NCBI GenBank assembly: GCA_017651315.1
Contig: JAGCDE010000016.1
Coordinates: forward strand, 1 to 37,850
Source of the DNA: Bacteroidaceae bacterium
GTDB lineage: Bacteria; Bacteroidota; Bacteroidia; Bacteroidales; Bacteroidaceae
Length of the DNA: 37,850 nucleotides
Direction: 5' to 3'
Positions 1,102 through 37,617 of the stretch are shown here, in pieces. A program made the position numbers and the translations under genes. The notes beneath the pieces are model-generated. The model did not search any database and had not been told where the DNA came from. It saw nothing but the letters and a program-made list of their open reading frames with translations. Every line of letters begins with the position of its first letter. Position 1 is the first letter of the stretch.

Positions 1102-3066
1102 TTACCAAAGGGTTATATACAGTATGGCCAGCAACAGGATGATACCGTATGCACCGATGTTGAACTGGCTGTTGGTACGGAAGAGTGAAATGTCGATGTC
1201 GATGGCTTTGGGATCCTGTACCTTGTCCTTTGCATTCGATGTCAGGTAGATACCCAGTACAAGGAATACTGTCGCCAGGAAGAATATACCCTCAAATCCA
1301 AGATTCTGCAGCTTGACGCACCAGTCTGCATTACTGAACATTACGATTGCACCGAGAGCATAGCACAGAGCTGAAAGGACGAAGAGAATCTTGCTCCATT
1401 TGAGTTGTGTGCTGATTGTCTGAGCGTCAATCTTAGCCGCTTCCACCGTCTTCTTACTCATAAGTGAAAGACCTACAAACAAGAGGACAAGCACGAAGAA
1501 TACGTAACCCATACGGATAAGGAACGGAGTGTTTGGCATGATGACCTTGAACAGTATGGAGAATACGAATGTGCTGATGGCGGTGACGATTGCAGCAGTG
1601 CCGCTGGAACGTTTCCATAGCAGTCCGAGGCTGAATATCACTACGATGCCAGGATATACGAATCCTGAATACTCCTGAATGATCTGGAACGCCTGATCGG
1701 CTCCGCCCATGATGGGATAGATAGCTATGAGAGCGATGACAAGAGCTGAAACTGCCGTGATGCGACCTACCTTGACAAGGTTTCTGTCAGATGCACTCTT
1801 GTTGATGAACTGGTGATATACGTCCATCGTGAAGATGGTTGACGTGGAGTTGAACATTGAAGCCAGTGATGATATCACGGCAGCGGTCAGAGCTGCAAAT
1901 GAGAGACCCTTCACTACCACCGGGGTGAAGTTGCGGATCAGGAAGGGATAAGCGTCATCGGAAATGTTTATTGAACCGGCGAGAAGTCCTTCTCCGAGCA
2001 GACGGTTGTGCAGGTCAGCGTCATTCCAGATCAGATAAGCGCAGACACCGGGAATGCAGACGATGAACGGGATCAGAATCTTGAGGAATCCTGCAAACAC
2101 AAGACCCTTCTTGGCTTCGTCAATGTTCTTGGCAGCAAGACCCTTCTGGATGATGTACTGGTTGAAACCCCAGTAACCGAGGTTGGTGAGCCACATGGCA
2201 CCGATTACCAGGACAACTCCAGGAAGAGTGAAGTAAGGATCATCGGTTATGTTGGGGAACAGATCGGCCTGACGTTCAACCACCAGGTTGAAGTGACGGT
2301 CACCGGGAATATCTCCGAGCCGTTCCATGACCTGTCCGAGAGCGGGGATGGCACCGTTAGCGCCAATGTGCGGAGCAATGGTCTTCAGGGCGAAGAAAGC
2401 GGTGATAAGACCGCCGCCTACAAGGAATACGACCTGCATGACATCGGTCCATGCCACTGAGGCCAGACCTCCGTAGATTGAGTAAACACCGGCAACCAGA
2501 TACAGGAAGATAATTATGAGGAGACGTACCGATACTGAAGTGCCTCCAATCATCAGCACTGCACCTTTCAGACCCAGGATCTGCTCAATGGCAAGAGCTC
2601 CAAGCCATGCAACAGAGGTCAGGTTGATGAACACGTAGAGGAATAGCCAGAATATGGAGAATGCCAGTCCCACTCCCTTGTTGTAACGGTTGGTAAGGAA
2701 CTGGGGAATAGTGAACACCTTGTTCTTTATCATTACCGGCAGGATGAATTTGCCTACTACAACAAGCGTGAGAGCTGCCATAAGTTCGTATGCGGCAACC
2801 GCAATGCCTGAAGCATATGCCGTACCGCTCATTCCGATGAATTGCTCGGCGCTGATGTTGGCTGCAATCAGTGAAGCACCTACCGCCCACCAGGTAAGTG
2901 TGTTACCAGCCAGGAAGTAATCGTTGGAACTCTTTTCCTTACCGTCTTTCTTTCTTGACACGAAGAAGCCGAGAAATATAAGTACGGCCAGATAAATAAA
3001 GAAAATCACGTAGTCAACAGGTTTGAAACCATTGTTGGCCAGTCCTTGCATAATGCTGTTGTTCAT
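1102..3066 (-). CDS. Sodium/sugar symporter, SGLT (SSS/SLC5) family
   Basis: A 654-residue inner-membrane protein with about 14 hydrophobic segments, closely resembling the Vibrio Na+/galactose symporter vSGLT. Shared blocks include [40 protein letters not shown] and [11 protein letters not shown]. From remembered vSGLT numbering, residues that contact galactose are kept: Asn70, Gln75, Glu94, Asn295, Lys329, Gln464 and the gate Tyr298; one contact serine (vSGLT Ser91) is Ala97. Ser399 and Ser400 match the Na2 sodium site. Together with the adjacent galK and two mutarotases this suggests galactose or glucose as substrate, while the araD/araA neighbours leave L-arabinose possible. Substrate is inferred. 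It lies between the lipoprotein galM and araD in the operon. Confidence 0.9.
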
Positions 3067-3098
3067 ATTTTTGTTAGTTAATTAATTGATTTTTGTGA

Positions 3099-4250
3099 TT
3101 ATTCCACACCGAACTGATATATGCAGTGGCTGTAGTACTGCTGGCCGGGAGCGAGTTCCGCACTGTACCATCCGGGCAGGTTTGCCTTGTTGGGGCTGTC
3201 GGGGAACTTCTGGGTCTCTAAGCAGCAGCCGGTGCGCTGTTCCATTTTGTTGCCCTGTTTGTCAATACCGGTGCCATCCAGGAAGTTGCCTGAATAGAAC
3301 TGTATGCCCGGCTCGTTGGTATAGACCTCTACATAAATTCCGGTGATGGGGCTGTACAGCTTGGCTGCGCATTTGGTGTCATCGCCTTTGGTGTCAAGAA
3401 CCCAGTTGTGGTCATAGCCGTTACCGTTCTTGAGCTGCACGTAATCATAGTTGTTGATCTCCTTGCCGATGGCCTTGCCCTTGGTGAAATCCATAGGAGT
3501 ACCTGCTACCGGCAGAATCTCACCTGTGGTCATGTAGGTGTCGTCGCAGGGTGTGAAGTTGCTGGCGTTCAGTGTGAGGATATGGTTCGTGACAGGAATC
3601 GAGTGGTCGCCGTTCAGGTTGAAGTAGCTGTGGTTAGTCATGTTGATGACAGTCTTCTTGTCAGTGGTGGCCCTCCAGACTATATCGATGGCGTTCTTGT
3701 CTGTCAGGGTGTAGGTGACTGTGGCCACGACATTGCCGGGGAAACCAGCCTCACCATCGGGCGAATTCATGACAAGTGTGATACTGTTTTCCTTGACCTC
3801 CTTGACATCATAGACAAGGTTCTGCCATCCCATCGGCTCCGGTTCAAGGGTGCATCCGCCGTGCAGGCAGTGGCCGAAATTGTTCTGTGGCAACTGGTAT
3901 GTCACGCCGTCCAGGGTAATCCTTCCCTGGTCGATGCGGTTTGCATAACGGCCTACCGATGACCCGAAATCACTTGCCTGGGTCGTGTAGTCCTTGATGT
4001 TGGAGAAACCGATGACAGCGTCCTGCATCTTGCCGTCACGGTCAGGGACCTGTATGGCCACGATGCGTGCACCGAAGTTGGTAACCCAGACCTCGCAACC
4101 GTTCTTGTTGGTCAGCTTGTACAGGTCAGTCTTCTTGCCCGTAAAAACAGTCTGGAAGTCAGCCTTGTTGAGCAACGGAGCTGACTCTTTCTGAGAACAG
4201 GCCAACATGGAAAGCAGGCCTGCCAGCATGAAAAAGGTTGTTTTTTTCAT
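3099..4250 (-). CDS. galM: Aldose 1-epimerase (mutarotase), predicted lipoprotein
   Basis: A 383-residue galactose mutarotase, which interconverts alpha and beta anomers of galactose or related sugars. The N-terminus is a lipoprotein signal peptide: MKKTTFFMLAGLLSMLAC gives a lipobox ending at Cys18, so the mature enzyme should sit in the periplasm or at the outer membrane. The family's active-site residues are visible as His130 (CLHGG), His207 (TNHSYFNLNG) and Glu345 (CLETQKFPDSPN). It is preceded 32 bp upstream by galK and followed by the symporter, so it probably supplies the preferred anomer on the outer side of the inner membrane. It pairs with a second, signal-less mutarotase at 5446-6546. 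Confidence 0.93.
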   Translation of the reverse strand: MKKTTFFMLAGLLSMLACSQKESAPLLNKADFQTVFTGKKTDLYKLTNKNGCEVWVTNFGARIVAIQVPDRDGKMQDAVIGFSNIKDYTTQASDFGSSVGRYANRIDQGRITLDGVTYQLPQNNFGHCLHGGCTLEPEPMGWQNLVYDVKEVKENSITLVMNSPDGEAGFPGNVVATVTYTLTDKNAIDIVWRATTDKKTVINMTNHSYFNLNGDHSIPVTNHILTLNASNFTPCDDTYMTTGEILPVAGTPMDFTKGKAIGKEINNYDYVQLKNGNGYDHNWVLDTKGDDTKCAAKLYSPITGIYVEVYTNEPGIQFYSGNFLDGTGIDKQGNKMEQRTGCCLETQKFPDSPNKANLPGWYSAELAPGQQYYSHCIYQFGVE

Positions 4251-20138: not shown

Positions 20139-21704
20139 ATGGAAGAGATAGAAAGAAGGAGGACATTCGCGATTGTCTCGCACCCCGATGCCGGTAAGAC
20201 CACTCTTACCGAGAAATTCCTGCTGTTCGGCGGCCAGATCCAGGTGGCCGGAGCGGTCAAGTCAAACAAGATACGCAAGACCGCCACATCGGACTGGATG
20301 GACATAGAGAAACAGCGTGGAATATCAGTGACCACATCGGTCATGGAGTTTGATTATGAAGGATACAAGATAAACATACTGGATACCCCGGGCCACCAGG
20401 ATTTTGCCGAGGATACTTTCCGTACCCTGACCGCCGTTGACAGTGTAATCATAGTGATTGACAGCGCCAAGGGCGTCGAGCTGCAGACGCGCCGTCTCAT
20501 GGAGGTGTGCCGGATGCGCAAGACTCCGGTCATAGTGTTCGTGAACAAGCTGGACCGTGAGGGCAATGACCCGTTCGACCTGCTTGACGAGTTGGAGGAG
20601 GAGCTGAAGATACATGTCCGCCCCCTTAGCTGGCCGATAGAGAAAGGAGCCCGTTTCAAAGGCGTTTACAATATATACGAGCAGAAACTGGACCTGTTTA
20701 CACCCGATAAGCAGAAGGTGACCGATAAGGTTGAGGTTGATATAAACAGTTCCGACCTGGAATCCCATGTGGGTGAGCGCGAGGCAGCCAAACTGCGCTC
20801 AGACCTGGAACTGATAGACGGGGTGTATGAACCGTTTGACCGACAGCAGTATCTTGATGGTGAGCTTGCACCTGTCTTCTTCGGTTCGGCCCTGAACAAC
20901 TTCGGTGTACAGGAGCTGCTCAACTGCTTCGTGCAGATTGCTCCCAGCCCGCGTCCCACCCAGGCACTTGAACGTATCGTTGACCCTGAGGACAGCAGAT
21001 TCACCGGATTCATTTTCAAGATAACCGCCAACATTGATCCTAACCACCGCTCTTCGGTCGCGTTCTGCAAGGTCTGCTCCGGCCGCTTCCAGCGGAATGA
21101 GCCTTACTATCACGTGCGCTTGGACAAGACCTTCCGATTCTCGTCACCCACCCAGTTCATGGCTCAGCGCAAGAGCACCATCGAGGAGGCGTGGCCGGGT
21201 GACATCATAGGACTTCCCGATACCGGTAACTTCAAGATTGGCGACACCCTGACTCAAGGTGAAAAACTCCATTTCAAAGGCTTGCCCAGTTTCTCGCCGG
21301 AGATGTTCAAGTATATTGAGAATGCCGATCCCATGCGAGCCAAGCAACTCGCCAAGGGTATCGACCAGCTTATGGGAGAGGGAGTCGCCCAGATGTTCAT
21401 CAGCCAGTTCAACGGCCGCAAGCTCATCGGAACGGTCGGACAGCTTCAGTTTGAGGTTATCCAGTATCGTCTTGAGCATGAGTACAATGCGATTTGCCGA
21501 TGGGAACCTGCCAGCCTTTACAAGGCATGCTGGATAGAGAGTGACGATGATGCGGAACTGGAGGCATTCAAGAAGCGCAAGTACCAGTTTATGGCTACCG
21601 ACATGGAGGGACGTGACGTGTTCCTGGCCGACAGCGGCTATGTGCTTCAGATGGCACAGATAGACTTCAAGCATATCAGGTTCCACTTTACAAGTGAGTT
21701 CTGA
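20139..21704 (+). CDS. prfC: Peptide chain release factor 3
   Basis: A 521-residue translational GTPase that recycles release factors RF1 and RF2 from the ribosome. All G motifs are canonical: G1 SHPDAGKT at 14-21, switch I KQRGIS at 58-63, G3 DTPGHQDF at 82-89 with catalytic His86, and G4 NKLD at 136-139. The RF3-specific C-terminal domains follow ([41 protein letters not shown]). It lies 10 bp after DUF4924 and 2 bp before tsaC. It serves as a within-window control for the degenerate GTPase at 33074. Confidence 0.97.
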
Positions 21705-31746: not shown

Positions 31747-32859
31747 TTGGCGGGCATATACGTACATATCCCGTTCTGTGCCCGGCGCTGTATATACTGC
31801 GGCTTCTTCTCCACTGTGCGTGAAGAGGAGGCCGCCCGTTATGTAAACGCACTGTGCAACGAAATCCGTATGCGCCGCGACTACCTTGCCGGAGCTCCTG
31901 TCACGACTGTCTATTTTGGAGGGGGAACCCCTTCGCGACTCTCTCCAGCCCAGATTGGGCAGGTGATTGACAGCATCCGTTCCGTTTGGGCATTGGATTC
32001 ACTGACGGAACTCACGGTGGAATGCAATCCTGATGATGTTACCTTGGATTACATGAAAGCACTTCGTGCTCTCGGGGTGAACCGTGTCAGCATGGGAATA
32101 CAGACATTCAATGATGACCTGCTGCGTTTCCTCGGTCGGCGTCATACCTCTGCTCAGGCGACGGATGCGGTTTACACCTGCCGCAAAGCCGGAATGGAAA
32201 ACATAAGCATAGACCTTATGTATGGCCTTCCCGGCCAGACGTTTGAAATACAGCAGCATGACCTTGATACGGCTACATGCCTCGGTGTGCAGCACATCTC
32301 CTCCTATTGTCTCTCTTACGAGGAAGGATCCGTGCTGGAACGTATGCGCAGGGATGGCCGGATAATCCCGGCTGATGACGAAACATGTGCCGCCATGTAC
32401 ACTCGGATGTGTAACCATCTGCGCAGTGCCGGTTTCAATCACTATGAGATTTCCAATTTCTGCAGTCCGGGTTATCACTCGCGTCACAACAGCAGCTACT
32501 GGGAAGGAACTCCATATATCGGAATAGGAGCCGGTGCACACTCCTATGATACCCGCTCCCGCCAGTGGAATCCGAGTGACCTCTATGCATACATGACTTC
32601 AATAGAGCGGGGATGTCCTCAATTTGAAACAGAGTCACTTTCAGGAACCGACATTTACAACGAGCTTATCATGCTCCGTCTCCGGACCGCCGGAGGACTG
32701 GATATCTCCTCTCTCTCTCCCGCAGATCGTATCTATGTCATGAAAGCGTCAGACAATCTGATATCTGATGGCACTCTTGTGCTGGAAAACAGTCATATCC
32801 GTATCCCGGAAACGCGCATGTTCATAAGCGATGCAATAATCAGCTCCCTCTTCAGATAG
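31747..32859 (+). CDS. hemW: Radical SAM heme chaperone HemW
   Basis: A 370-residue radical SAM protein resembling oxygen-independent coproporphyrinogen oxidase but of the HemW type, which binds and delivers heme. The iron-sulfur motif CxxxCxxC is CARRCIYC at residues 11-18, followed by TVYFGGGTPSRL, SIDLMYGLPGQT, HYEISNFCSPGYHSRHN and IGIGAGAHSY. The frame begins with TTG at 31747 (MAGIYVHIPFC), only 4 bp after the mutase stop; no ATG precedes the cluster in frame. The copy of the dispersed repeat at 32872 begins 13 bp after its stop. Confidence 0.92.
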   Translation: MAGIYVHIPFCARRCIYCGFFSTVREEEAARYVNALCNEIRMRRDYLAGAPVTTVYFGGGTPSRLSPAQIGQVIDSIRSVWALDSLTELTVECNPDDVTLDYMKALRALGVNRVSMGIQTFNDDLLRFLGRRHTSAQATDAVYTCRKAGMENISIDLMYGLPGQTFEIQQHDLDTATCLGVQHISSYCLSYEEGSVLERMRRDGRIIPADDETCAAMYTRMCNHLRSAGFNHYEISNFCSPGYHSRHNSSYWEGTPYIGIGAGAHSYDTRSRQWNPSDLYAYMTSIERGCPQFETESLSGTDIYNELIMLRLRTAGGLDISSLSPADRIYVMKASDNLISDGTLVLENSHIRIPETRMFISDAIISSLFR

Positions 32860-32871
32860 CAACAGGTCAAA

Positions 32872-32968
32872 ACAGATTCTGATGGACCTCATTTGTTCCA
32901 TCAAAACGGTAAAGTCAGAAAAACAGGCCATAATCAACTTCATGGAACAAATTTAAACAGATACTTAT
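32872..32968 (+). repeat. Dispersed intergenic repeat, copy 4 (most complete)
   Basis: The element is framed by ACAGATTCTGAT (32872-32883) and ACAGATACTTAT (32957-32968). Inside it holds TGATGGA (32880-32886) and TCCATCA (32897-32903), which can pair as a 7-bp stem. It then has AAAACGG, an A-rich stretch with CAGGCC, and ATAATCAACTTCATGGAACA. The whole length aligns by eye with copies at 25983-26077 and, reversed, 12861-12946. Its right end runs directly into the -33 TTTG of the predicted EF-G paralogue promoter. Confidence 0.75.
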
Positions 32969-32999
32969 TTGGATTTTTCACCTTAATTAAATAAATTTG
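32968..32999 (+). promoter_or_regulatory. Predicted promoter of the EF-G paralogue
   Basis: TTTG at 32968-32971 and TAAATTTG at 32992-32999, spaced by 20 nt, match the Bacteroidota -33/-7 consensus perfectly. The -33 box abuts the end of the dispersed repeat. The predicted leader to the ATG at 33074 is about 70 nt. Confidence 0.7.
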
Positions 33000-33073
33000 C
33001 GGGCCTTTGAAGGAATTGTGCTGCGGGTTTTGAATAAAGGCACAGACTGATTGACAAATCAACAATTTAAAAT

Positions 33074-35224
33074 ATGAAGAATTATAAAACTGAAGACATC
33101 CGGAACATCGCCATTGTGGGCGGCTCCGGATCCGGAAAAACCACTCTCTCAGAGAGTATCCTTTTTGAGGCTGGCGTAATTAAGCGCCGTGGCTCAGTCA
33201 ACTCCAAGAATACCGTCAGTGATACGGCTGCTGTTGAGCTCGAGTACGGCTATTCAGTCTATTCAACAGTCTTTTCTGTTGAGATGTGCGGCAAGAAATT
33301 CAACTTCTTTGACTGCCCGGGTGCTGATGATTTTTCCGGTCAGGCCGTCACTGCACTGAACATCTGTGATTCAGCTGTCCTTCTGGTGAACGGTTCACGT
33401 GGCGTTGACGTAGGTCTCATCAACAGTTACCGTCTCATCAAGAAACTCGGCAAACCCGCTTTCTTCGTCATCAATTATGTGGATAGCGACAAGTGTGAGT
33501 ATGACAGTGTGGTTGAGCAGATCCGCTCTACATTCGGAACCACATGTGTTGCAATCCAGTTCCCTGAACACTCAGGCCCTTCGTTCAACAGCATAATAGA
33601 TGTGCTGGTCAACCAGAAACTGACTTTTTCAGACGGCTCAGCCCCCAAGGCGGAGGATATCCCCGGTGCCATCGCCTCCAAGGCGCAGTCAATGCGCGAC
33701 TCCATTACCGAGTCGGCTGCCGAGAATGACGAGGAGCTTATGGAGAAGTTCTTTGATCAGGGCGAGCTCTCCACCGATGAGATCCGCGCCGGTTTCCGTA
33801 AGGGTATAGAGTCATGCGGTCTGTTCCCGATTGTCTGCACATCGGCTGCCCAGAATGTCGGTGTAAGCCGTCTTGTCGAGTTCCTGGCCAATGTGGCTCC
33901 CTCACCTTTGCAGGGTAAGCCTGTTGCCGATACCAAAGGTGAAACCGTTGGTCTGGACGCAGCCGGAACATCGCTCTTCTTCTTCAAGACTTCGATGGAG
34001 CCCCATATCGGTGCCGTATCCTATTTCAAGGTGATGTGCGGCAAGGCTCATGAGGGCCAGGACATGGTCAATGCCGACCGTGGCTCCAAGGAGCGTGTCG
34101 CACAGCTGTTCGTAAGCCAGGGTAACAGTCGCGTACAGGTTCCGGAACTCGTGGCAGGTGACCTTGGCTGCACTGTAAAGCTCAAGGATGTCCGTACAGG
34201 AAACACCCTGAATGAGGGTGCTGACCACAGCTTCAACTTCATAAAATATCCTAACTCGAAATTCTCGCGTGCCCTCAAGCCTGTCAATGAGGCCGATATG
34301 GAGAAGATGATGACCATCGTCAACCGTATGCGCGAAGAGGATCCGACACTTGTCATAGAACAGTCCAAGGAGCTCCGTCAGGTTATCCTCTACGGTCAGG
34401 GGGAATTCCATCTGCGCACCTTCAAGTGGTGTATTGAGAACAATGACAAGATGATGATTGTATTCGAAGAGCCGAAGATTCCCTATCGTGAGACTATTAC
34501 CAAGGCTGCCCGTGCAGACTATCGCCACAAGAAACAGTCCGGAGGTGCCGGTCAGTTCGGTGAAGTTCATCTTATCGTGGAGCCATACGAGGACGGCAAG
34601 CCTATGCCTGAGGTGTTCAGGTTCGGCAATCAGGAATTCAAGATGAGCGTGAAGGGCGTTGAGGAATATCCGCTGGATTGGGGTGGCAAGCTGGTCTATG
34701 TGAACAGTATCGTAGGCGGTTCAATTGATGCCCGTTTCATGCCTGCAATCCTCAAGGGTATCATGCAGCGCATGGAGCAGGGACCCCTTACCGGATCTTA
34801 CGCACGTGACGTGCGCGTTATAGTATATGATGGTAAGATGCATCCTGTGGATTCAAACGAAATCTCATTCCTGCTTGCTGGCCGTAACGCTTTCAGCGCA
34901 GCCTTCAAGGAGGCGGGGCCCAAGATTCTGGAGCCTGTCTATGACGTGGAGGTTCTTGTGCCCGCAGAGTATATGGGTGATGTCATGAGTGACCTGCAGG
35001 GTCGCCGCGGCATGATCATGGGTATGGAAAGTGAAGGTAATTACCAGACCCTCAAGGCCAAAGTGCCTCTTAAGGAGATGGCAACATATTCGACTTCATT
35101 GAGTTCGATAACCGGCGGCAGCGGCTCATTCGTAATGAGTTTCAGCAGCTATGAACTTGTTCCGACCGATGTCCAGGATAAGCTTATCAAGGAGTTCGAG
35201 GCAAAACAGAAAGAGGAAGAATAA
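33074..35224 (+). CDS. fusA2: EF-G paralogue with degenerate GTPase motifs (EF-G2-like)
   Basis: A 716-residue protein with full EF-G domain order: G domain (residues about 8-275), domain II (about 290-400), III (405-480), IV (490-610, SGGAGQFGEVHLI and tip loop MHPVDSNEISF) and V (about 615-690). The P-loop GGSGSGKT (16-23) is intact, although the usual AHIDAGKT is lost. Switch I RGIT reads YGYS (58-61), G3 DTPGH reads DCPGA with Ala84 for the catalytic His, and G4 NKxD reads NYVD (134-137). This pattern fits a factor that does not hydrolyse GTP normally, as reported for B. thetaiotaomicron EF-G2, which supports translation during carbon starvation. Codon use looks like that of a well-expressed gene. 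It precedes the rprX/rprY-like pair. Confidence 0.93.
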   Translation: MKNYKTEDIRNIAIVGGSGSGKTTLSESILFEAGVIKRRGSVNSKNTVSDTAAVELEYGYSVYSTVFSVEMCGKKFNFFDCPGADDFSGQAVTALNICDSAVLLVNGSRGVDVGLINSYRLIKKLGKPAFFVINYVDSDKCEYDSVVEQIRSTFGTTCVAIQFPEHSGPSFNSIIDVLVNQKLTFSDGSAPKAEDIPGAIASKAQSMRDSITESAAENDEELMEKFFDQGELSTDEIRAGFRKGIESCGLFPIVCTSAAQNVGVSRLVEFLANVAPSPLQGKPVADTKGETVGLDAAGTSLFFFKTSMEPHIGAVSYFKVMCGKAHEGQDMVNADRGSKERVAQLFVSQGNSRVQVPELVAGDLGCTVKLKDVRTGNTLNEGADHSFNFIKYPNSKFSRALKPVNEADMEKMMTIVNRMREEDPTLVIEQSKELRQVILYGQGEFHLRTFKWCIENNDKMMIVFEEPKIPYRETITKAARADYRHKKQSGGAGQFGEVHLIVEPYEDGKPMPEVFRFGNQEFKMSVKGVEEYPLDWGGKLVYVNSIVGGSIDARFMPAILKGIMQRMEQGPLTGSYARDVRVIVYDGKMHPVDSNEISFLLAGRNAFSAAFKEAGPKILEPVYDVEVLVPAEYMGDVMSDLQGRRGMIMGMESEGNYQTLKAKVPLKEMATYSTSLSSITGGSGSFVMSFSSYELVPTDVQDKLIKEFEAKQKEEE

Positions 35225-35353: not shown

Positions 35354-36898
35354 ATGAAAAAAATTGTAGTCTGGATTCTTGGTTTTGTTATCAGTGTCTC
35401 TTTCGTGGTGCTGCTGCTTATGCAGTTGAGGTATATGAAAGAGATGAGTTCCATGCGCCATCAGGAATTTGAGGATGCCGTCAAGCGAAGCCTGTATGAG
35501 GTGGCGCATCAGTTGGAGTTGGAGGAGGCCAAGTGGTATCTGGAAAATGATATCCGCGAAATGGAGCGCAGCTCGAATCTGGGATACCCTATTCTTGAGG
35601 GTGGGATATTCAGCCAATCCATTACATATATGAACGGCGGCTTTACCTACAACCAGTCTGTGCAGCAGAACTTCGGCCCTTCCGCAACAATGCCTTCTCT
35701 GCAGGTGCCCCGTACGAATTCAGAACCTGGAACTACTGTGACCGACAAGGGTGTCAGTCTTCAGCAGCAGCAGCTCAAGCGTTATCTCACTCAGAAGAAT
35801 CTTCTGGACGAGGTTATTTTCAGTATGCTGAACACTGCAAGCGAACGGCCTCTGAACGAACGCATCAATCCTCAGTTCCTGGCTAATGAGTTGCAGTCAG
35901 AACTTAAGGACAACGGCGTGGATATTCCGTTCCACTGGGTGATAACAACCCCAAACGGCCGCATAGTACATACGTGTTGCCGCGATTTCAATCCGGCTGT
36001 ACTGACAAATACCTTTGACCAGACTGTCTTCCACAGTGATTCTCCCTCCCGCATGGGTGTCATGCGCGTATATTTCCCTACTTTGGATGCCTATATTGAC
36101 AATTCTGTAAATTTCATGATTCCTTCGCTCATTTTCATGGCGGTCCTCATGGTTACCTATGTGTTCACCCTCGTGCTTGTGCTTCGGCAAAGGAAGGTGA
36201 CCGAAATGAAGAACGATTTCATCAACAACATGACACATGAGTTCAAGACCCCCATATCCACTATATCACTTGCCGCACAGATGTTGAATGACCAGTCTTT
36301 GGACAAGTCCCCCCAGTTGCTTCAGCATTACTCAAGGGTTATAAACGATGAAACCAAGAGATTGCGTTTTCAGGTGGAGAAGGTGCTGCAGATGTCCATG
36401 TTTGAACGCCAAAGTACCACTCTCAAGTTCAAGAACATGGATATTGATGAACTCATATATGGTGTAGTCACCACTTTCCGCCTGAAGGTGGGCAACATAG
36501 GAGGCACGTTGGAAACAGAATTTGAGACGGAGGATCCTTTTGCAATGGCGGATGAGATGCATTTCACAAATGTGATATTCAATCTTATGGACAATGCCGT
36601 CAAATACAAGCGTGACGACGTTCCGTTGAAACTTACCGTACGCACCTGGAATGAACCTGGCAAGCTCCTGATATCCATAGCCGACAACGGAATAGGGATC
36701 AGGAAAGAGGATCTTAAGAAGATTTTTGAGAAATTCTATCGTGTCCATACCGGCAACAGGCACGACGTGAAAGGATTCGGACTTGGTCTTGCCTATGTCA
36801 AGAAGGTAATCCTCAGCCACAAAGGGACCATCCGCGCCGAAAGCGAATTAGGCAATGGAACCAAATTTATAATTACCCTACCTCAAAGTGAAGAATAA
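35354..36898 (+). CDS. rprX: Sensor histidine kinase, RprX-like
   Basis: A 514-residue inner-membrane sensor kinase. The first membrane segment is at about residues 4-24, a periplasmic sensor region of about 225 residues without a recognised domain follows, and the second membrane segment is at about 253-276. HisKA contains FINNMTHEFKTPISTISLAA with the phosphorylated His295. The ATPase domain shows N box LMDNAVKYK, G1 ADNGIGI, F box FEKFYRV and G2 GFGLGLAYV. It is followed 17 bp later by an OmpR-type regulator. Size, order and neighbours match the rprX/rprY pair first described in Bacteroides fragilis; the name is by similarity and gene context. Confidence 0.88.
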   Translation: MKKIVVWILGFVISVSFVVLLLMQLRYMKEMSSMRHQEFEDAVKRSLYEVAHQLELEEAKWYLENDIREMERSSNLGYPILEGGIFSQSITYMNGGFTYNQSVQQNFGPSATMPSLQVPRTNSEPGTTVTDKGVSLQQQQLKRYLTQKNLLDEVIFSMLNTASERPLNERINPQFLANELQSELKDNGVDIPFHWVITTPNGRIVHTCCRDFNPAVLTNTFDQTVFHSDSPSRMGVMRVYFPTLDAYIDNSVNFMIPSLIFMAVLMVTYVFTLVLVLRQRKVTEMKNDFINNMTHEFKTPISTISLAAQMLNDQSLDKSPQLLQHYSRVINDETKRLRFQVEKVLQMSMFERQSTTLKFKNMDIDELIYGVVTTFRLKVGNIGGTLETEFETEDPFAMADEMHFTNVIFNLMDNAVKYKRDDVPLKLTVRTWNEPGKLLISIADNGIGIRKEDLKKIFEKFYRVHTGNRHDVKGFGLGLAYVKKVILSHKGTIRAESELGNGTKFIITLPQSEE

Positions 36899-36915: not shown

Positions 36916-37617
36916 ATGGAAGAAAAACTTAACATTCTGCTGTGTGAAGATGATGAGAATCTGGGCATGCTGCTCCGTGAATATCTTCAGTCCAAAGGAT
37001 ACAATACAGAACTGTGTCCGGATGGTGAAGCCGGTTACAAGGCTTTTCTTAAAAGCAAGTTTGACATCTGCATCTTCGATGTTATGATGCCGAAGAAAGA
37101 TGGGTTCACCCTTGCCAAGGAGATCCGTTCCATCAATTCGGATATTCCTATCCTGTTCCTCACAGCCAAGGCGTTGAAAGAGGATATTCTGGAAGGCTTC
37201 AAGATTGGTGCCGATGATTATATCACAAAGCCTTTCAGCATGGAGGAGCTTACTCTCCGTATGGAGGCCATCCTCCGTCGTGTGCATGGAAAGAAGAACC
37301 GTGAAGTCACTATGTATAAGATTGGACGCTTCACCTTCGATGCCAAGAAACAGATCCTTTCAATCGGTGAGAAATCGACAAAGCTCACTACCAAGGAGTC
37401 GGAACTGCTTAATCTGCTCTGCGTGCATCAGAATGAGATTCTCCAGCGTGATTTCGCCTTGAAGGCCATCTGGATAGATGACAACTACTTTAATGCACGC
37501 AGTATGGATGTCTATATCACGAAGCTGCGCAAGCACCTTAAGGAGGATGATACAGTGGAGATCATCAACATACACGGAAAGGGGTACAAACTTATTGTCC
37601 CTGAAACCGAGGAGTGA
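36916..37617 (+). CDS. rprY: OmpR-family response regulator, RprY-like
   Basis: A 233-residue response regulator. The receiver domain (residues 5-120) has the acidic pocket Glu11, Asp12 and Asp13, phospho-acceptor Asp55 in CIFDVMMPKKDG, Thr83 in FLTAKAL, and Lys105 in DYITKPFSMEEL. The winged-helix DNA-binding domain (about 135-230) contains LTTKESELLNLLCVHQNEIL and DVYITKLRKHLKEDDTVEII then NIHGKGYKLIV. It follows the cognate kinase by 17 bp, so the two form an operon. The target regulon is not visible here. A strong terminator follows at 37644-37675. Confidence 0.92.
   Translation: MEEKLNILLCEDDENLGMLLREYLQSKGYNTELCPDGEAGYKAFLKSKFDICIFDVMMPKKDGFTLAKEIRSINSDIPILFLTAKALKEDILEGFKIGADDYITKPFSMEELTLRMEAILRRVHGKKNREVTMYKIGRFTFDAKKQILSIGEKSTKLTTKESELLNLLCVHQNEILQRDFALKAIWIDDNYFNARSMDVYITKLRKHLKEDDTVEIINIHGKGYKLIVPETEE

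Follow-up and report, generated by a model that had tools for sequence, protein, structure and literature searches.

A fusA2 gene apparently freed from Cur control and preceded by a predicted consensus promoter in a genus of Bacteroidaceae

The fusA2 locus and the identity of its product

The window, that is, the whole stretch of 37,850 nucleotides that was analysed, carries on its forward strand at 33074..35224 a coding sequence of 716 amino acids, which profile, Pfam, tree and structure matches identify as fusA2, the gene for EF-G2. The open reading frame lies where a sequence-only reading of this DNA had placed it, and the residues to which that reading had drawn attention (Ala84, YGYS and NYVD) were all read again in the translation. 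The product scored 1158.7 bits against the EFG2_Bacteroid profile (NCBIfam NF058620; curated cut-off, 1000), and Pfam matched the GTPase domain and domains II, III, IV and V, in agreement with the earlier claim that domains II–V are complete. A predicted structure of the window EF-G2 (pLDDT 89.3; an earlier model built from 9 sequences had a pLDDT of 50.8 and was set aside) aligned with 8DMF over 715 residues at 66% identity and an rmsd of 2.2. In a tree of 80 rows, a check of the kind that the sequence-only reading had named, the window protein fell inside the EF-G2 clade and not with canonical fusA (EF-G1), and EF-G2 was split from the 16 EF-G1 rows with a support of 100; B. faecis and other named Bacteroides served as stand-ins for B. 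thetaiotaomicron. Profile score, tree placement and similarity to 8DMF together bear out the proposed orthology with B. thetaiotaomicron EF-G2, and this identity can be regarded as established. The protein itself is of an already known kind, an ordinary EF-G2.

Of 151 genomes of the family, 146 gave an EF-G2 match with an E value of 1e-200 or lower (identity 58–100%), the family sample being taken as GTDB Bacteroidaceae, as inferred from the Bacteroides records that match its genomes. The match was absent from the remaining five (G322, G352, G361, G416 and G424), and the gene may therefore have been lost in places; one of these genomes, G352, is 96% complete. All 37 genomes of the window genus contained a match, some as fragments only. 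A chance open reading frame or a frameshift artefact is ruled out by the family-wide matches and the conservation of the domains. An anti-phage role was also considered and rejected, PADLOC having given just a 19.7-bit match to mad3 over residues 12–39. Two genomes of the genus encode an additional EF-G-like protein (L291 in G451, and G363:C89:18324-20375), and the extra copy in G451 is 51% identical to EF-G1. The named database records closest to the window genome belong to uncultured Bacteroidaceae or Bacteroidales sampled from reindeer, horse faeces and water buffalo caecum and to the RUG series, which we take to be rumen genomes.

Upstream of fusA2 lies hemW (31747..32859, forward strand; TIGR00539, 287.6 bits, cut-off 205.4). 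Downstream, on the same strand, are a sensor histidine kinase gene (35354..36898), recognized by profile and locus comparison and named rprX from its position before rprY, and the response regulator gene rprY (36916..37617; RespRegRprY, 431.7 bits, cut-off 370). Neighbours were counted at readable loci when they lay on the same strand within 1.2 kb and were detected by tblastn at 1e-8. By this count, rprX is directly downstream of fusA2 at 30 of 30 loci of the genus, 76 of 93 other loci of the family and 0 of 68 other loci of the phylum; hemW is directly upstream at 21 of 30, 7 of 92 and 0 of 70 such loci, respectively. The two genes had been described as constant neighbours of fusA2, which holds for rprX within the family and fails for hemW: the link with rprXY is a trait of the family, whereas the link with hemW is mostly a trait of the window genus.

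Regulator, operator and promoter of fusA2

In B. thetaiotaomicron, a 22-bp palindrome upstream of fusA2 is the binding site of the Crp-like activator BT4338, or Cur, which increases fusA2 mRNA under carbon limitation, as described in PMC6989115; PMC10294740 gives the rise as 238-fold and the identity between the Cur proteins of B. thetaiotaomicron and B. vulgatus as 77.3%. Cur is defined here as the Crp family that shows 70–90% identity across five genomes, the BT4338 sequence itself not being the query; its members in B. faecis and P. coprocola are 75.7% identical. A palindrome lies 29–36 bases before the first Met of the Cur genes in the five genomes, with three mismatches in four of them and one in Paraprevotella, in line with the autoregulation that a part of PMC3878776 proposes.

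The protein search detected no ortholog of Cur in the 37 genus genomes, 8 of which are at least 90% complete, and returned just five weak matches of 22–24% identity and about 20 bits; the window's own genome, of 2.69 Mb, is 83% complete. Matches at E 1e-8 or better were present in 103 of 142 family genomes outside the genus; seven of these, all from one genus, are only 30–41% identical and may be paralogues. Proteins with a Crp/Fnr domain number one in each of five genus genomes and 4–13 in five relatives.

With at most two mismatches allowed, a threshold reached in 4.6% of shuffles, the Cur operator occurs about 97–139 bases upstream of fusA2 in named Bacteroides, Phocaeicola, Mediterranea, Paraprevotella and Parabacteroides; B. 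pyogenes and B. salyersiae have an operator with three mismatches. None of the 31 genus loci carries the operator at −85 to −150, where the best match has 4–6 mismatches of 12; one of them (L081) has a two-mismatch match at −43 rather than in the usual position. Among 50 genomes, the site (at most two mismatches) precedes fusA2 in 20 of 33 genomes with Cur and in 0 of 17 without it (Fisher, 1.3e-5); with the window genus left out, the counts are 20 of 33 and 0 of 12 (Fisher, 3.3e-4), neither value being corrected for relatedness. When three mismatches are allowed, the counts become 26 of 33 and 4 of 17.

The site is missing in 13 of the 33 Cur-containing genomes too, and five loci without it (L046, L047, L050, L053 and L057) belong to genomes that have kept Cur (G441, G413, G324, G300 and G327), which indicates that the operator can be lost without the regulator. 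Three loci of another lineage that lack the usual site (L066, L192 and L197) share TTTGTTnnnAAAAATT-like words at −139 to −160 of fusA2, in a comparison that covered 50 of 80 named loci; the genomes of L192 and L197 have no Cur. Over the genome as a whole, nine genus genomes contain at most one exact Cur palindrome each, two relatives without Cur contain none and nine genomes with it contain 1–7, and the number does not exceed that of a control pattern in B. faecis (2 versus 3) or B. pyogenes (1 versus 2); these counts are too low to carry weight alone. The sequence-only reading had connected the gene with carbon starvation, and in so far as this role would depend on the known regulator, it does not extend to the window genus: neither a Cur ortholog in the 37 genomes nor an operator in place at any of the 31 loci was found. 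This double absence is established for the genomes and loci searched, and Cur control of fusA2 appears, from these sequence comparisons, to have been lost in the genus.

Comparison of upstream regions within the genus points to a predicted Bacteroidota promoter on the forward strand, composed of a −33 element, TTTG, at 32968..32971 and, 20 nt past it, a −7 element, TAAATTTG, at 32992..32999. These boxes correspond to the Bacteroides/Bacteroidota promoter consensus. The full pattern (TTTG or TTG, 19–21 bases, then TAnnTTTG), to which a perfect match arose in 0.2% of shuffles, occurs at every one of the 31 genus loci, at one of the 44 loci that have a Cur site and at one of the 42 remaining loci. 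Repeated upstream sequences, L149–L153 (repeats of genus genomes), L001, L010 and loci with fewer than 200 upstream bases were left out of this promoter and operator count, and the loci of one genus represent one evolutionary event, not 31. A form shorter by one base, TAnTTTGCG, occurs at 49 of 86 loci outside the genus; in our reading, it may be a weaker, activator-dependent form of the promoter. Twelve Cur-lacking genomes outside the genus have neither the Cur site nor the full −33/−7 promoter, and the full promoter is thus a trait of the genus rather than a rule for the loss of Cur.

Single-sequence folds predict a hairpin, GCCTTT...AAAGGC, in the leader of the fusA2 mRNA, close to its 5' end (33003..33041, forward strand). 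It is kept despite changes of letters at L038–L045 and L067–L088 (GCCTTT/AAAGGC, GCCTTC/GAAGGC, GCTCCAA/TTGGGGC and GTTGCCC/GGGCAAC). The leaders at 17 of 31 genus loci fold better than 95% of their mononucleotide shuffles, and seven genus loci (L043, L068, L081, L084, L086, L087 and L088) show almost no leader fold. RNAalifold found no common pairs in an alignment of 19 leader hairpins, which in our view had shifted the stems. Leaders of the Cur type often contain a different hairpin, GTATG/CATAC, in a chosen subset of 25.

Another regulator could act on the fusA2 promoter. A less likely but serious reading is that fusA2 is still induced by starvation as in Bacteroides, through RprY, the remaining Crp/Fnr protein or some other regulator than Cur; the position of rprX directly downstream at every genus locus counted and the one Crp/Fnr-domain protein left in each of the five genus genomes are consistent with it. 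When the last 220 upstream bases of the 31 genus loci are roughly aligned, however, the only well-kept blocks are the −33/−7 boxes and parts of the leader that follows them, which argues against such a regulator.

Residue losses and constraint in EF-G2

The GTPase motifs of the window EF-G2 were located by alignment, all on the forward strand. The P-loop GGSGSGKTT (residues 16–24; 33119..33145) retains Lys22, as had been observed before, and has Gly19 where canonical EF-G has Asp; the loss of this Asp, which is present in the genome's own EF-G1 (AHIDAGKTT), adds to the changes already noticed. Switch I reads EYGYSV (residues 57–62; 33242..33259) for ERGITI, with Ser61 at the Mg-coordinating position, and conforms to the EFG II consensus xxxSx given in an excerpt of PMC3150367; the same excerpt describes Ser for Thr in switch I as a hallmark of the EFG II subfamily, and the Ser is therefore not damage. 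Switch II (G3) reads DCPGADDF (residues 80–87; 33311..33334), with Ala84 for the His of canonical EF-G, and G4 reads NYVD (residues 134–137; 33473..33484) for NKxD. The open reading frame at 20139–21704, previously named prfC, has canonical motifs as described (RGIS60, DTPGH82 and NKLD136).

The residues were compared in 134 proteins, comprising 30 from the genus, 22 others from the family, 78 other EF-G2-like proteins of the phylum and 4 EF-G1, with proteins shorter than 600 amino acids and repeats left out of the motif alignment. All 4 EF-G1 rows have the switch II His and none of the 130 EF-G2-like rows does, so its loss is old in the EF-G2 of the phylum; among the 30 genus rows, Ser is commonest at this position (25), and Ala occurs in 3, including the window. 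At the switch I Arg position, all 52 family rows have Tyr and all 78 other EF-G2-like rows have Arg or Lys, and YGYS is found only in family rows and one Tannerellaceae row. None of the 52 family rows has the NKxD Lys, which 45 of the 78 others retain. Lys22 of the P-loop and Asp80 and Gly83 of G3 are kept in all 130 EF-G2-like proteins. The suggestion that NYVD reduces guanine specificity finds little support, in that G4 retains its Asp in 52, its Asn in 51 and its Lys in none of the 52 family proteins, and B. thetaiotaomicron EF-G2 itself has NQLD. The sole loss of the G4 Asn among these 52 is in L086 fusA2 (1501–3648), which has SNVD.

Domain IV contains a segment with an insertion at residues 503–536 (34580..34681, forward strand), 34 amino acids long by alignment and 7 in the genome's own EF-G1. 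Its length across the 134 rows is 34 amino acids in 51, 25 in 68 and 5 in 7. Han et al. in 2023 reportedly described an extra region of about 26 residues in EF-G2 that is absent from EF-G; the 34-residue segment may be that region.

Translocation by B. thetaiotaomicron EF-G2 without GTP hydrolysis has been published, and the ortholog of that species is reported to lack GTPase activity, according to a title cited in PMC12775393. Since the window protein shares its residues and fold with this ortholog, it most likely also acts without hydrolysis. That it instead hydrolyses GTP slowly through other residues, like an EFG II protein elsewhere, seems to us improbable. The nucleotide-binding residues are retained in EF-G2-like proteins, and T. 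thermophilus EFG2, a member of EFG II, has an intrinsic GTPase activity above that of EFG-1 in the part of PMC3150367 concerned; against this stand the reported inactivity of the B. thetaiotaomicron ortholog and the further departure of the family from the other EF-G2 proteins of the phylum at the switch I Tyr.

Codon use had been noted as suggestive of good expression, an observation upheld by a codon adaptation index of 0.776 for fusA2, the second highest of 33 window genes; these genes are our choice from 79 open reading frames, the reference was ribosomal genes (6 reference genes per genome), and the spread of the index across the window genes is small (0.61–0.80). The ratio of the fusA2 index to that of fusA, scored with itself removed from the reference, is 0.85–1.25 in six genus genomes versus 0.74–0.87 in six others (rank test, 0.004). 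The divergence of EF-G2 relative to EF-G1 is similar in 25 genus genomes and 24 others for domain I (1.64 and 1.66) and domain II (1.57 and 1.61), but for domains III, IV and V it is 1.27, 0.39 and 0.62 in the genus versus 2.08, 0.70 and 1.47 elsewhere, EF-G1 itself diverging similarly in both sets (0.124 and 0.136). EF-G2 is less variable than EF-G1 in domains IV–V within the genus and only in domain IV in the 24 others. The nucleotide half of EF-G2 drifts equally in both sets; the half that mimics tRNA is under roughly twofold tighter constraint in the genus, although such a reduced divergence does not by itself imply stronger expression. This conservation of domains III–V across 25 genomes and the EF-G2 matches, partly fragments, in every genus genome make a non-functional remnant or an assembly artefact extremely improbable, even though the five family genomes without a match indicate that the gene can be lost.

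Proposed role and comparison with known systems

We propose that EF-G2 would dock on the ribosome with GTP bound and that its domain IV would bias the tRNA–mRNA complex forward, the GTP not being hydrolysed. In Bacteroides, carbon starvation activates fusA2 through the Crp-like Cur (BT4338); in the window genus, where Cur and its operator at fusA2 are missing and a consensus −33/−7 promoter is present, EF-G2 would be made in ordinary growth and would share routine translocation with EF-G1. We consider it probable that EF-G2 of this genus is a hydrolysis-free factor, freed from Cur, expressed from a consensus promoter and made in ordinary growth; the hydrolysis-free step is inferred from orthology, and constitutive expression and a housekeeping share of translocation likewise go beyond direct observation. 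We predict a constitutive, housekeeping-like use of fusA2. The stronger view, that a starvation-only translocase has turned into a constitutive housekeeping factor carrying a large share of routine translocation in a genus of the herbivore gut, is possible but doubtful.

If this stronger view is true, cells of this genus at times translate without the GTP cost of EF-G. Which translocation steps need GTP hydrolysis by EF-G is still debated, as a part of PMC12775393 states, and EF-G2, so far studied as a Cur-controlled starvation factor, is a natural test case for this need. In a lineage that has kept EF-G2 and has a consensus promoter but no Cur, such a factor may turn out to belong to everyday translation, and the starvation role known from B. 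thetaiotaomicron should not be carried over to every EF-G2 ortholog. A limited literature search found no published report of a Cur-free fusA2 with a consensus promoter; this form of the gene, and not the already known protein, is what appears to be new here.

Among known systems, ribosomal protection proteins of the Tet(Q) type are distant relatives of EF-G, and identity with Tet(Q) was rejected since the window protein scores 112.4 bits against a cut-off of 1425. The chain of B. thetaiotaomicron EF-G2 in PDB 7UVP and 8DMF bears the misleading label 'Tetracycline resistance protein TetQ', which is a matter of naming. Canonical EF-G, represented by the genome's own fusA on contig C22, has the same domain order at 31% identity, but it possesses the His, RGITI, NKMD and the P-loop Asp, whereas the window EF-G2 departs from the canonical (EFG I) motif set of RGITI, DTPGH and NKxD. 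The likeness to the EFG II subfamily lies in switch I, where EYGYSV follows the G2 consensus xxxSx and not RGITI (PMC3150367); unlike EFG II proteins such as the T. thermophilus EF-G homolog 1WDT, the window protein has lost the Lys of NKxD, a motif conserved in EFG II of which it keeps Asn and Asp, and has the switch I Tyr and the 34-residue domain IV segment. The closest known system is EF-G2 of B. thetaiotaomicron (fusA2, BT2167; PDB 8DMF and 7UVP), with which the window protein shares its full-length fold, 66% identity, YGYS, DCPG and the loss of the NKxD Lys. The two proteins differ in Ala84 for Ser84 and NYVD for NQLD. They differ also in control, since we found neither a Cur gene in the window genus nor a Cur operator at its usual position there, and in the promoter, which is TAAATTTG in the window and TAnTTTGCG in many Bacteroides.
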